Shown in pieces: positions 7,986-12,069 of a DNA stretch of 64,000 nucleotides. How positions within the stretch are numbered: the first letter of the stretch is position 1; every line of letters starts with the position of its first letter. Both the position numbers and the translations under genes were made by a program. The notes under the pieces were generated by a model. That model was given only the letters and a program-made list of their open reading frames with translations, was not told the DNA's origin and did not search any database. The stretch spans positions 1,860,001 to 1,924,000 of the forward strand of contig NZ_CP101823.1 in the NCBI RefSeq assembly GCF_024498175.1. The letters are read 5' to 3'. This DNA is from Haloplanus salinarum. GTDB taxonomy: Archaea > Halobacteriota > Halobacteria > Halobacteriales > Haloferacaceae.

Positions 7986-8699
7986 ATGGTCGCGGGTGGT
8001 GAGATGGGACCCGACGACGAGGGAATCAGCTTCGCACACGCCCTGGCGACGTTGAAAGAACAGGGCAGCGCACTGCTCGTCGTCGGCTCGGTTCCCGAGG
8101 AGATGTTCGCGCAGGCGTCGGCCACGATGCTCGGCGCGCCGGACGCCGAGCCCCCGCGGCGCCGACTCGTCGTGACGCCGAAATCGAACCGCGAGCGGGG
8201 GGTCCGTCGACTTCGCGAGACCGGGCCGCTCTCCGCCGAGTACGCACGCCTGATCACGGGTGGCGAGCGCGCGCGCAGCGCGGCCGCGGGACGGTCCCTG
8301 GACGAGGTGTCGCCCCGAACCCACGTCGTCGACGGGTCCGTCGGCGACCTCGGGACGACGATCACCGACGTCATCGAGGAGTTCGAACTGTTCGCCGGGG
8401 AGCTCGCCCCCGCGGAGTTCCGGATGGCCTTCGACTGCCTGCCGACCCTGCTCGCCACGTACGGCCGCGAGACGGCGTTTCGGTTCGTCCACGCCGTCGT
8501 TTCACAGTCCCGGGCGGCGGCGGGGCTGGTCCACGTCGGACTCCCCCGCGACGTGACCGCGGAGGTCGTCCGGCTGTTCCAGCCGCTGTTCGACGCCACC
8601 GTCGAACTCCGAATCGACGGCGGAAGCCTGGATCAGCGGTGGCACTTCCGTGACCGCGACCTCACGTCCGACTGGCTACCAGTCGACGAACTTTCGTGA
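7986..8699 (+). CDS. RecA-fold-like haloarchaeal protein (DUF7504-type)
   Basis: 237 residues, no enzymatic motif recognised. The pattern of short hydrophobic strands (ALLVVGSVP, RRLVVTPKS, THVVDGSVGD) alternating with helices, ending in a VHVGLPRD strand, suggests a degenerate RecA/RAD55-like core without an intact P-loop. It resembles in plan the protein at 21212-21847, although the two are clearly diverged. It lies 51 bases upstream of the CHAT peptidase gene on the same strand and may be co-expressed with it. The family name is from memory of haloarchaeal DUFs and is uncertain. Confidence 0.7.
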   Translation: MVAGGEMGPDDEGISFAHALATLKEQGSALLVVGSVPEEMFAQASATMLGAPDAEPPRRRLVVTPKSNRERGVRRLRETGPLSAEYARLITGGERARSAAAGRSLDEVSPRTHVVDGSVGDLGTTITDVIEEFELFAGELAPAEFRMAFDCLPTLLATYGRETAFRFVHAVVSQSRAAAGLVHVGLPRDVTAEVVRLFQPLFDATVELRIDGGSLDQRWHFRDRDLTSDWLPVDELS

Positions 8700-8750: not shown

Positions 8751-10871
8751 ATGAGTCGAACCGAACGGCCGGAGGGTTTCGGCGTCGAGACGGAGGGGGA
8801 CGCCCTCGAAGTGTCGTTTCGGACACTCGATGGCGAACCCGGACTGGTCGTCGCCGACCTCATCGAGCGCAACCAGTTCCGGCTGTTCACCGACCGCCCG
8901 GTGTCGCCGACGCCCGTCGACCCCGCCGGCCATCGGTTCCCCGTCGACGCCGCCGTCGCCGTCGAGACGGACGAAATCGAGCTCCCGACGGTCGTCTCGG
9001 TCTGTGTCCGCGACGAGCACGGCGAGATGCTCGCCGAGACGGAGCATTCCGCCTACGAGGAGTTCCCACCCGGGAGCTACAGCCTCGAACTCTGTGGCCC
9101 GATCAAGATCTACCTCCGGGTCGAGGGACGCGTCACGGTCGCCTCGGATGTGACGCGGACGTGCATCGGGTTCGACGGCGAGACCGAGGTTCGGATCGGC
9201 GCCCGCTCCCACCACGAGGGTCCCGCGGCGACGCTGACGACGACCGACGACCCCGCGGACGTGATGGCGGCCGTCTCGGAGTTCTCCTCGGCGCTCAAGA
9301 CCACGTCACCGGAGCGGTCCTACCCGACGCTCCGGGGACACCCGCCGCTGGTCGAACTCGGGGACCGGGTCGAGATCCCCGAGGGCGTCGTCTCGCCGGA
9401 GACGGGCATCAGGCTCGAACTCCCGCCCGAGTATCGATCGATCTACGTGGCGACGCCGCTGGCGTACTACCTCGCCGCCGACGTGGTTCCGAGCGACCGT
9501 CCGCGCCTCGTGACCGACGACGGGTTCGAACACGACCTCGATACGATGCGCGGGTTCGAGACGGAGGTCGAACGCGTCCTCAAACAGACGTTCTTCCTCG
9601 ACTGCGTGACACGCACCGAGGGGTACTACTCGGTCGACCTCCACGAGCGTGAGGCCGTCGAGACGGACCTCGACCTCGATTTCGAGTGGCTGTACGACCA
9701 GTCGCTCGCGACACAGTTGGAGGAGTACCTCTCGATCCCGTTCGGCGCCGTCGAGGACGAACTCCCCGAGTGGCGGCTCACCTCCCACGTCGCCCCCACT
9801 CCGGAGAACGTCGAACTGCTGCCCTTCGTGACCAACGACCTCGCGGTCGTCCGGACGCCGCGGGACCAGCCGGAGTCGAGTTCTGCGGTCCAGACCGCCG
9901 CTGCCGACGAGTTCTTCCGCGATTCGGCGTTCACCCGAAGCACGGCGGCCGACGACGGCACGCGGTCGTACGTCCAGCCGGAGACGGCCGACTCGCTGGA
10001 GCAGTCCTGGATCGGTGAGGGGGCGCCCATCGGCGCCAGCAAGGCCACCACGGACGCCTTCTACAACCGCCTGGATCGGACCCCCGCCGACGGCGACATC
10101 GGCATCACGGTCGTCTGTAACGACCCCCGGATGGCCGACGAACGCGACGTCGTCGACCAGGTGTACGGCTCCCGCGAGGAACTCCCGTTCGACGTCCGGG
10201 TCCACCACGACCTGGGACGGGCGGAACTCCGGGAGGTCCTCTCCGCGGAGGCGGACCTCCTGCATTACATCGGCCACATCGACGCCGAGGGGTTCGAATG
10301 TGCCGACGGCAAACTCGACGCGACGACGCTCACGAGCGCCGGTCCCGACGCCTTCCTGCTGAACGCCTGCCAGTCCTACGAGCAGGGGTCGGCGCTCATC
10401 GAAGCCGGGGCCATCGCGGGCATCGTGACGCTCTCGGACGTGATCAACAGCGGCGCCGTCCGGATGGGCCGGATGCTGGCGCGGCTTCTCAACCGCGGCT
10501 TCACCGTCGGGAGCGCGCTCGAAGTCGCCCGCGACGACTCGATCATCGGCGAGCAGTACACCGTCATCGGGGACAGCAGCCTCTCGCTGGCACAGACCGA
10601 CGGCGGTCCCCCGAACGTCTGTTCGATCGAACGGCAGGACGACGGCTACGAACTGGAGTGGCAGACCCATCCCTCCACGTCGTTCGGCATGGGGAGCCTC
10701 GTGATCCCGTGGATCGACGACGTCGACGAGTATCACCTCTGGTCGGGGAACTCACGGAGCTTCGAACTCTCGGGCGAGGAGCTACGTCAGTTCCTCTCGC
10801 TGGAGACGGTACCGGTGAAAATCGACGGTTCGCTCGTCTGGAGCGACGAACTCGACTTCTCGAACCTCTAA
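8751..10871 (+). CDS. CHAT-domain (caspase-like) peptidase
   Basis: 706 residues from the ATG; an in-frame TTG 30 bases upstream is less likely. The first 440 residues or so form a haloarchaeal region with beta-rich stretches and no recognised motif. The C-terminal part, about 450-615, has the CHAT signature: a strand leading to the catalytic His in LLHYIGHID (H509), then the catalytic Cys in LLNACQSYEQG (C540). CHAT proteins are clan CD peptidases related to caspases and separases, and known members are activated to cut specific partner proteins. Upstream is a RecA-like protein; downstream, convergent and overlapping by four bases, is a repeat-peptide gene that is a natural candidate substrate (inference). 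About 90 residues after the core have no assigned role. Confidence 0.88.
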   Translation: MSRTERPEGFGVETEGDALEVSFRTLDGEPGLVVADLIERNQFRLFTDRPVSPTPVDPAGHRFPVDAAVAVETDEIELPTVVSVCVRDEHGEMLAETEHSAYEEFPPGSYSLELCGPIKIYLRVEGRVTVASDVTRTCIGFDGETEVRIGARSHHEGPAATLTTTDDPADVMAAVSEFSSALKTTSPERSYPTLRGHPPLVELGDRVEIPEGVVSPETGIRLELPPEYRSIYVATPLAYYLAADVVPSDRPRLVTDDGFEHDLDTMRGFETEVERVLKQTFFLDCVTRTEGYYSVDLHEREAVETDLDLDFEWLYDQSLATQLEEYLSIPFGAVEDELPEWRLTSHVAPTPENVELLPFVTNDLAVVRTPRDQPESSSAVQTAAADEFFRDSAFTRSTAADDGTRSYVQPETADSLEQSWIGEGAPIGASKATTDAFYNRLDRTPADGDIGITVVCNDPRMADERDVVDQVYGSREELPFDVRVHHDLGRAELREVLSAEADLLHYIGHIDAEGFECADGKLDATTLTSAGPDAFLLNACQSYEQGSALIEAGAIAGIVTLSDVINSGAVRMGRMLARLLNRGFTVGSALEVARDDSIIGEQYTVIGDSSLSLAQTDGGPPNVCSIERQDDGYELEWQTHPSTSFGMGSLVIPWIDDVDEYHLWSGNSRSFELSGEELRQFLSLETVPVKIDGSLVWSDELDFSNL

Positions 10872-11197
10872 GGCCCGGAGATGCCACCGCCGTTGCCGTC
10901 GGCAGTGTAGGGACCGGAGATGCCACCGCCGTTGCCGTCGGCAGTGTAGGGACCGGAGATGCCACCGCCGTTGCCGTCGGCAGTGTAGGGGCCTGAAATG
11001 CCACCGCCGTTGCCGTCGGCAGTGTAGGGGCCTGAAATGCCACCGCCGTTGCCGTCGGCAGTGTAGGGACCGGAGATGCCACCGCCGTTGCCGTCGGCAG
11101 TGTAGGGACCGGAGATGCCACCGCCGTTGCCGTCGGCGGTAGTGGATTGTCGGGTCTCGTCGGCCGCAGTCACCGTGCCGCTGTCACGTTCGGACAT
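10868..11197 (-). CDS. small tandem-repeat protein, seven 13-residue Gly-rich units
   Basis: 109 residues: a 20-residue leader (MSERDSGTVTAADETRQSTT), then the unit ADGNGGGISGPYT repeated six times without any change, and a final copy ending at GP. No family recognised. Repeat copies differ only at synonymous third positions (ATC/ATT, TCC/TCA, GGT/GGC), which argues that this minus-strand frame is translated and selected. An A/T-rich promoter lies at the right distance from the ATG. The layout, a polar leader plus identical cores, is like multi-core precursor peptides, but no modifying enzyme is adjacent; the convergent neighbour is a CHAT peptidase. It could also be a structural or adhesive repeat protein. 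There is no signal peptide or Cys. Confidence 0.8.
   Translation of the reverse strand: MSERDSGTVTAADETRQSTTADGNGGGISGPYTADGNGGGISGPYTADGNGGGISGPYTADGNGGGISGPYTADGNGGGISGPYTADGNGGGISGPYTADGNGGGISGP
10871..11137 (-). repeat. 39-bp tandem repeat array (seven copies)
   Basis: Six complete 39-bp units and a final 33-bp unit, end to end without spacers, in frame with the minus-strand gene. Reading along the plus strand the subtypes run A-A-A-B-B-A-A: the fourth and fifth units carry CCTGAAAT where the others have CCGGAGAT, and all the changes are silent. The B pair points to duplication of blocks within the array. Confidence 0.92.
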
Positions 11198-11217: not shown

Positions 11218-11236
11218 GAAAATAATTATAATTTTT
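11218..11236 (-). promoter_or_regulatory. promoter of the repeat-peptide gene
   Basis: The A/T run read on the minus strand as AAAATTATAATTATTTT is centred about 29 bases upstream of the ATG at 11197, the canonical position for a leaderless haloarchaeal TATA box. The region 11218-11275 is unusually A/T-rich for this genome and may hold more regulatory sites. Confidence 0.6.
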
Positions 11237-11361
11237 CGAGAATATCTGATAGTAAATATAATCAATTAACCCAGTTGACTACTGACATAAAATGTGGCGA
11301 GCAGAAGACGGCTGTCGACGGTGGATTCGTCGCGAAAAGATCGCGTTTCGTGTCCGTTTTC

Positions 11362-11949
11362 CTACTCTTCCGCGTCCGAGTCGCGGTCGATATCCTGATA
11401 GACGCGTGCCATATCGTCCATCTCGGCGAACCGTTCGAGTTTGTCGTCGAGTTCGGTCCGCAGTTCCTCGATGTCGTCGAGGAGTTGCTGGTACTTCTCG
11501 GAGTCGTCGAGCGTCGACGCGGGCGACTCGGATTCGAGCAGTGCTTTCTTGGAGGCGAGCGAGAAGAGTCGACGGACCCCTTCGTCGTACGCGTCGCGGG
11601 CGAGCAGGTTCGCCACCGTCCCCGTGAGATCCTCCCGGGAGACGGGTTTGACGAGGTAGTCGTCGAATCCCATGTCGATCACGTCGACGTCGGGTTCGAC
11701 GGCCGTCACCATGGCGACTCGGCAATCGAGGTCCCGGTCACGGATGGCGTCGAGCACTTCGTCGCCCGAGAAGTCGGGCATCCGTCGGTCCAAGAGGACG
11801 ACGCGCACCTCGTCGTCGAGTTCGTCGAGTGCCGTGCGACCGTCGTTGACCGAACGCACGCAGTAGGACTCGCCGAGCCACGTGGCGTAGAGTTCGGCCA
11901 AGTCGCGTTCGTCCTCGACGACGAGAACGAGGGGGGAATCGTCGGTCAT
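11362..11949 (-). CDS. HalX-domain response regulator
   Basis: 195 residues from the chosen ATG. The receiver domain (about 5-115) has the acidic pair ED at 12-13, phospho-acceptor D54 in VLLDRRMPD, and K101 in YLVKPV. The C-terminal part (about 118-185) is the helical HalX domain found in haloarchaeal regulators; no DNA-binding domain is seen. The start follows a purine-rich GGGAG eight bases upstream; an upstream ATG at 11991 would add 14 residues and fits a TATA-like run near 12015, so the start is not certain. It is divergent from nothing nearby and runs toward the repeat-peptide gene; its kinase partner is unknown. Confidence 0.9.
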   Translation of the reverse strand: MTDDSPLVLVVEDERDLAELYATWLGESYCVRSVNDGRTALDELDDEVRVVLLDRRMPDFSGDEVLDAIRDRDLDCRVAMVTAVEPDVDVIDMGFDDYLVKPVSREDLTGTVANLLARDAYDEGVRRLFSLASKKALLESESPASTLDDSEKYQQLLDDIEELRTELDDKLERFAEMDDMARVYQDIDRDSDAEE

Positions 11950-12069
11950 ATCTGCTCCCGGAGGGGAGTGCGGCCACTCACGGATGTCCATGTATCGCCG
12001 GAGCATATCAAAATACCCCTTGCGGAACCGACTGTCGTCGAAGATCGACGGACCCCGCCGGCGGGTCGA

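Follow-up and report, generated by a model that had tools for sequence, protein, structure and literature searches.

Relatives of the CHAT peptidases, separase among them, are kept in check by inhibitory partners. For Rap-Phr/RRNPP systems, propeptides were reported that carry more than one copy of the pheromone (PMC11343458). Haloferax volcanii has a strong caspase-like activity, which is inhibited by zVAD-fmk, is linked to stress and death and has no gene assigned (PMC3615174). The window, that is, the whole stretch of 64,000 nucleotides of Haloplanus salinarum analysed here, carries a CHAT peptidase gene and, tail to tail with it, a gene for a small repeat protein. The favoured explanation, with a probability of roughly 0.55, is a class-wide module of a CHAT peptidase and a dedicated micropeptide, the tail of which is most likely the ligand and substrate of CHAT.

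The peptidase gene (8751..10871, forward strand) codes for a protein of 706 amino acids, as supported by the open reading frame, homologue alignment and predicted fold. CHAT is the sole domain detected by Pfam, and the score of 20.4 bits with PF12770 is below the gathering score of 24. The AF2 model (mean pLDDT 89.4) consists of an N-terminal beta-sandwich (residues ~20-155), a caspase/separase-like core (~230-610) and a small C-terminal beta domain. Foldseek matched the model to separase, gingipain R, SAVED-CHAT, Craspase TPR-CHAT and caspases. A PDB sequence search with the CHAT profile gave 0 matches, and a PDB fold match of the N-terminal beta-sandwich was not obtained at E-values up to 0.001. 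The caspase/separase-like fold and the His-Cys dyad of clan CD CHAT peptidases are both present. The dyad proposed in the preliminary description, His509 (codon 10275..10277, forward strand) and Cys540 (10368..10370, forward strand), is invariant in 103/103 homologues and in a 95-sequence CHAT alignment. The match of the model to proteases acting on dedicated partners counts in favour of an interaction of CHAT with the tail.

CHAT homologues with invariant histidine and cysteine are present in 179 of the 194 Halobacteria genomes. In other genera, the usual convergent neighbour of CHAT is a protein of 40-48 amino acids that belongs to the Pfam family DUF7503 (PF24335). The DUF7503 profile exceeds its cut-off in 163/194 Halobacteria genomes. 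By comparison of the two lists, these are 163 of the 179 CHAT-positive and 0 of the 15 CHAT-negative genomes. The 16 CHAT-positive genomes below the DUF7503 cut-off comprise four Haloplanus genomes with the repeat form and 12 genomes in which the CHAT genes found are all distant, partial or broken. At 127 of the 158 loci with enough flank, CHAT converges with a DUF7503-like ORF, and nine of the other 31 are repeat-form Haloplanus loci. The genes nearly touch: the stop-to-stop gap has a median of 1 nt, and the overlap is exactly 4 nt in 34 pairs. Paralogous CHAT genes within one genome mostly have their own DUF7503 copy (e.g., L007, L047 and L079 in G024). CHAT and micropeptide are a conserved, class-wide gene pair. 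Being adjacent and inherited together is no proof of a contact between CHAT and DUF7503. Repeat ORFs, which had been expected beside CHAT in other haloarchaea, are absent outside Haloplanus; the 40-48-amino-acid DUF7503 is found there instead. The preliminary statement that no such pair is known does not hold to the letter for a pair that is class-wide. A search on DUF7503, DUF7504 and CHAT with Haloferax or haloarchaea, within the papers open to it, did not find a published description of the pair. The database records examined mostly annotate CHAT and DUF7503 as hypothetical proteins.

Several loci have a particular arrangement. Genome G124 is one of the 12 with distant, partial or broken CHAT. 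As many as 12 divergent CHAT matches were found in it, and several of these CHATs (L150, L156, L159, L161, L162 and L163) still face small proteins that have a hydrophobic segment and a long acidic tail with GP or P at its end. In G048, which has no DUF7503, the CHAT gene is fragmented (C12:4275-5215) and an apparent pseudogene, which fits a joint loss. Locus L085 (G012:C1:483817-491865) has two identical 44-amino-acid DUF7503 genes in tandem behind one CHAT, possibly a first step toward copy-number growth.

The repeat protein of the window has 109 amino acids (10868..11197, reverse strand). Its ORF is convergent with the CHAT gene and the two stop codons share 4 nt. The preliminary description had recognised a 20-residue leader (11138..11197, reverse strand) followed by seven near-identical units. 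The units of 13 amino acids, TADGNGGGISGP[Y], are encoded at 10871..11137 on the reverse strand, and the tandem array has a period of 39 bp, 6.7 copies and a match of 97%. All differences between units of the window are synonymous inside the 11-codon core. The relative G080 has 13 homologous units, and pairwise comparison of the 11-codon core yielded 393 synonymous and 0 non-synonymous differences (pS 0.58, pN 0). The linker residue in G080 varies between Y, F and S while the core of the unit is fixed. These values, together with a conserved promoter-like block upstream, identify the repeat frame as a real coding sequence. The AT-rich block (11225..11269, reverse strand) is common to the Haloplanus genomes and a similar block is located upstream of canonical DUF7503 genes. 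It includes a TATA-like TTATAAT 28-34 nt before the ATG; such a box at ~30 nt would fit leaderless transcription. The contrast of pS and pN in G080 shows that each unit is individually maintained. Every unit of the array is under protein-level selection, as expected of functional products or docking sites. With this selection and the conservation of the pair across Halobacteria, the earlier view of CHAT as an active-looking peptidase with a dedicated peptide partner is supported.

Two other readings of the array were rejected. Replication-slippage junk is ruled out by the pS of 0.58 versus a pN of 0 across units. A ribosome-arrest leader of the SecM type ending in GP is ruled out by the recurrence of GP within the repeat forms. 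It is also excluded by the lack of a gene directly downstream on the same strand, where CHAT is antisense.

The repeat protein does not match the DUF7503 profile (PF24335), and a profile search did not detect another DUF7503 anywhere in the genome of the window. It shares with DUF7503 the convergent position behind CHAT, the acidic MS(E/D) start, the GP tail and the promoter block, which demonstrates descent from DUF7503 rather than profile membership. The leader is homologous to the canonical acidic N-terminus MSESDSGTVAA, and the unit core ADGNGGGISGP resembles the canonical C-terminal tail AASNGGGISGP. Each of the 12 Haloplanus genomes contains a single close CHAT gene. Nine of them have the repeat form; the other three (G194, G197 and G199) have at the same place a canonical 47-amino-acid DUF7503 with the same start and tail (e.g., MSESDSGTVAAYLNDNPRMMGVLFTMLLLLSQAGTVAASNGGGISGP). 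The hydrophobic segment is missing in all repeat forms. Their units read [YFMS]-[TN]-A-D-G-N-...-S-G-P and number 2 (G200), 4, 5, 7, 7, 10, 13 and 14; the ninth array, at L040 (G201), is interrupted by a run of N (masked bases). The repeat protein is a derived DUF7503 that has lost the hydrophobic part and amplified the tail. The commonest linker residue, tyrosine (TAC), occupies the place of the stop codon (TAA/TAG) of single-unit genes, suggesting that the array arose by duplication through the stop codon.

Single and repeat forms are interleaved on the CHAT tree. One origin of the repeat form was tested as a single clade on this tree, and the clade was rejected (p-AU 2.9e-52). The sister relation of G199 and G200 is no longer kept in the last 300 nt of CHAT. 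The identity patterns at the 3' end are compatible with a recombination that swaps the adjacent gene, and recombinational allele exchange and several origins of the repeat form are equally likely. The replacement of one form by the other at the same locus argues for an equivalent function of the shared part, the tail. Among the repeat-form genomes, CHAT has a dN/dS of ~0.16, so the selection on CHAT was not relaxed by the loss of the partner's membrane form.

In the favoured explanation, a cytosolic CHAT of the caspase/separase fold and the tail-to-tail micropeptide DUF7503 would form a two-gene module. The micropeptide in its common form combines an acidic N-terminus, a hydrophobic signal or anchor ending in [AV]-A-A and an uncharged, GP-ended tail of 8-10 residues. 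In most Haloplanus, including the genome of the window, a deletion removed the hydrophobic segment and the tail was amplified to 2-14 soluble tandem units. The tail, as a dedicated ligand and substrate, would dock in or near the active-site cleft of CHAT; in an array, every unit would offer its own docking and cutting site. Since CHAT and the tail persist whereas the membrane segment can be dispensed with, the tail is most likely the part recognised by CHAT. The sequences themselves establish the conserved pair, the derivation, the selection on each unit and the intact dyad. Cleavage of the tail is likely. Cuts after the aspartate or around GP would both yield uniform 13-residue pieces, and the data choose neither; a precursor of several identical peptides, as originally proposed, is plausible. 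Binding and cutting of the tail by CHAT would then have signalling as output.

Alternatively, the tail may be bound and not cut. It would act as a pseudosubstrate of CHAT, similar to securin, or it would cluster CHAT, with multivalency provided by the membrane anchor in the common form and by tandem units in Haloplanus. Such a docking or inhibitor scaffold agrees with a free copy number (2-14) of a fixed unit that is Gly/Ser-rich and looks disordered. The inhibition of separase-type CHAT relatives by their partners and the match in fold point in the same direction. The variation of the linker residue (Y/F/M/S) counts against a scaffold, and nothing specific sets the scaffold apart from a substrate. 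It is a possible but tentative explanation.

In the canonical micropeptide, an acidic N-terminus is followed by a hydrophobic segment, an [AV]-A-A site similar to signal-peptidase sites and a hypervariable, uncharged tail of 8-10 residues. Alignment from both ends revealed a conserved (H/N)P(R/K)MxGxLF...LLLSQAG, then [AV]-A-A, six hypervariable and almost uncharged residues and GP. Gly-Pro is located at the C-terminal end of 102/120 unique DUF7503-like proteins. In approximately 15% of the micropeptides the terminal GP is missing, with GNGGxI[SYT] or TID at the end of many of them, and such losses are spread over several CHAT clades. A correlation of terminal-GP loss with CHAT residues gave scattered columns and no clear site. 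Both the minority without GP and this correlation count against the favoured explanation. Micropeptides without GP include those at L065, L068, L070, L072, L081, L083, L086, L088, L090, L094, L107, L134 and L135.

These features suggest a peptide signal as a further explanation. DUF7503 would be a signal peptide with a GP-ended pheromone of 8-10 residues that is freed at [AV]-A-A, and CHAT an intracellular receptor-effector or a processing enzyme. The -3/-1 rule is followed with A or V in 98/114 and A in 103/114 sequences. The tail positions -8 to -3 are the most variable part (~2.9-3.4 bits), only 2.8% of the residues are charged and the tail sequence follows the CHAT tree. The adjacent propeptide and receptor resemble the layout of RRNPP systems, including multi-copy propeptides (PMC11343458). 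The likely topology of the canonical form, with the N-terminus inside and a signal-peptidase-like site, would expose the tail on the outside and so separate it from a cytosolic CHAT, which counts against the favoured explanation. An extracellular tail may fit a pheromone better than a cytosolic substrate. The repeat forms speak against it: they have no signal segment and TAD or NAD replaces A-x-A, so that Sec export and release by signal peptidase are lost. The conservation of the (H/N)P(R/K)MxGxLF motif in the n-region also goes far beyond the needs of a plain signal peptide. A near-universal signalling system with a released tail, which the cognate CHAT reads or processes, and a soluble Haloplanus polyprotein as precursor of up to 14 peptides, is rather unlikely.

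As a small hydrophobic protein encoded next to a protease of the caspase fold, DUF7503 could also be a membrane toxin with a gasdermin-like logic. The 44-amino-acid peptide would harm the cell's own membrane, and the removal of the tail by CHAT would be the switch. The caspase-like activity of H. volcanii tied to stress and death would fit (PMC3615174). In the Haloplanus repeat forms, however, the hydrophobic part is deleted beside an intact CHAT. A typical defence module does not show such near-universal conservation, nor single copies across many genera, and PADLOC had no match. A toxin has little probability. An antiphage defence module in general was rejected on the absence of PADLOC and phage matches and on the near-universal distribution.

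The other neighbours of CHAT are more variable. The gene directly upstream of CHAT (7986..8699, forward strand) encodes a DUF7504 protein (PF24336, E 1.9e-48). The preliminary assignment as RecA-like holds for the pattern, but the Walker A motif is absent in 35/35 relatives, and the protein probably does not act as a normal ATPase. On the other side, the HalX response regulator (11362..12006, reverse strand) was confirmed by its Pfam match (E 3.7e-21). A DUF7504 gene is present in the flanks of 92/163 CHAT loci and HalX in 43/163; the synteny of HalX and the pair extends over Haloplanus, Haloferax and relatives. Some other CHAT loci have unrelated genes upstream. On some haloarchaeal megaplasmids (L164 and L167), the place of DUF7504 directly upstream of the CHAT paralogue is taken by a HalOD1 output-domain protein. 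The link of DUF7504 and HalX to the pair is looser than the link of CHAT to DUF7503. The pair persists where the genes upstream of it differ, so that CHAT and micropeptide together form the constant unit. Mere neighbours with an independent DUF7503, held together by convergent overlapping ends that are hard to separate and could freeze gene order, are most improbable given the pairs retained at paralogous loci beside changing upstream genes, the 0/15 DUF7503 in CHAT-less genomes and a DUF7503 in G049 on the same strand as CHAT, ~1.4 kb downstream.

The proposed module of protease and micropeptide would connect haloarchaeal CHAT proteins and DUF7503, two families without known function, in most Halobacteria. 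It reaches the model species H. volcanii, the control genome, through the DUF7503 match. Deletion and amplification in the Haloplanus alleles amount to a natural experiment, the outcome of which suggests that the functional part is the tail.

In comparison with known systems, the DUF7503 family is the closest relative of the repeat protein. Locus, strand, overlap with CHAT, N-terminal residues, promoter block and ISGP tail are alike; unlike the Pfam model, the repeat protein has no hydrophobic segment and the tail is present in 2-14 copies. A bacterial gasdermin pore-former beside its protease differs from the CHAT partner, which has 40-48 amino acids or is a Gly-rich repeat without a hydrophobic segment. 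RRNPP systems and Rap-Phr of Bacillota share the adjacent small propeptide, the hydrophobic N-terminal part, the short C-terminal peptide and, in some, amplified copies. The receptor is a TPR protein there and an archaeal protease here, and the amplified form here has no export segment. A TPR peptide receptor was not detected in the protein, in which CHAT is the only domain found and the N-terminal part is a beta-sandwich. Craspase (TPR-CHAT/Csx29), SAVED-CHAT and separase have the same caspase-like fold with a His-Cys dyad (Foldseek probability 1.00). In contrast to Craspase and SAVED-CHAT, the CHAT described here has no TPR, SAVED, Cas7-11 or CRISPR, and its partner is a micropeptide or a tail array. 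Likewise, the type III-E CRISPR features Cas7-11, Csx30 and TPR were not found, PADLOC gave no match and the neighbours are DUF7504, HalX or others. The caspase-like activity of H. volcanii (PMC3615174) is haloarchaeal and of the caspase-type cysteine protease kind, like this CHAT, and the CHAT gene is a candidate for the source of that activity.
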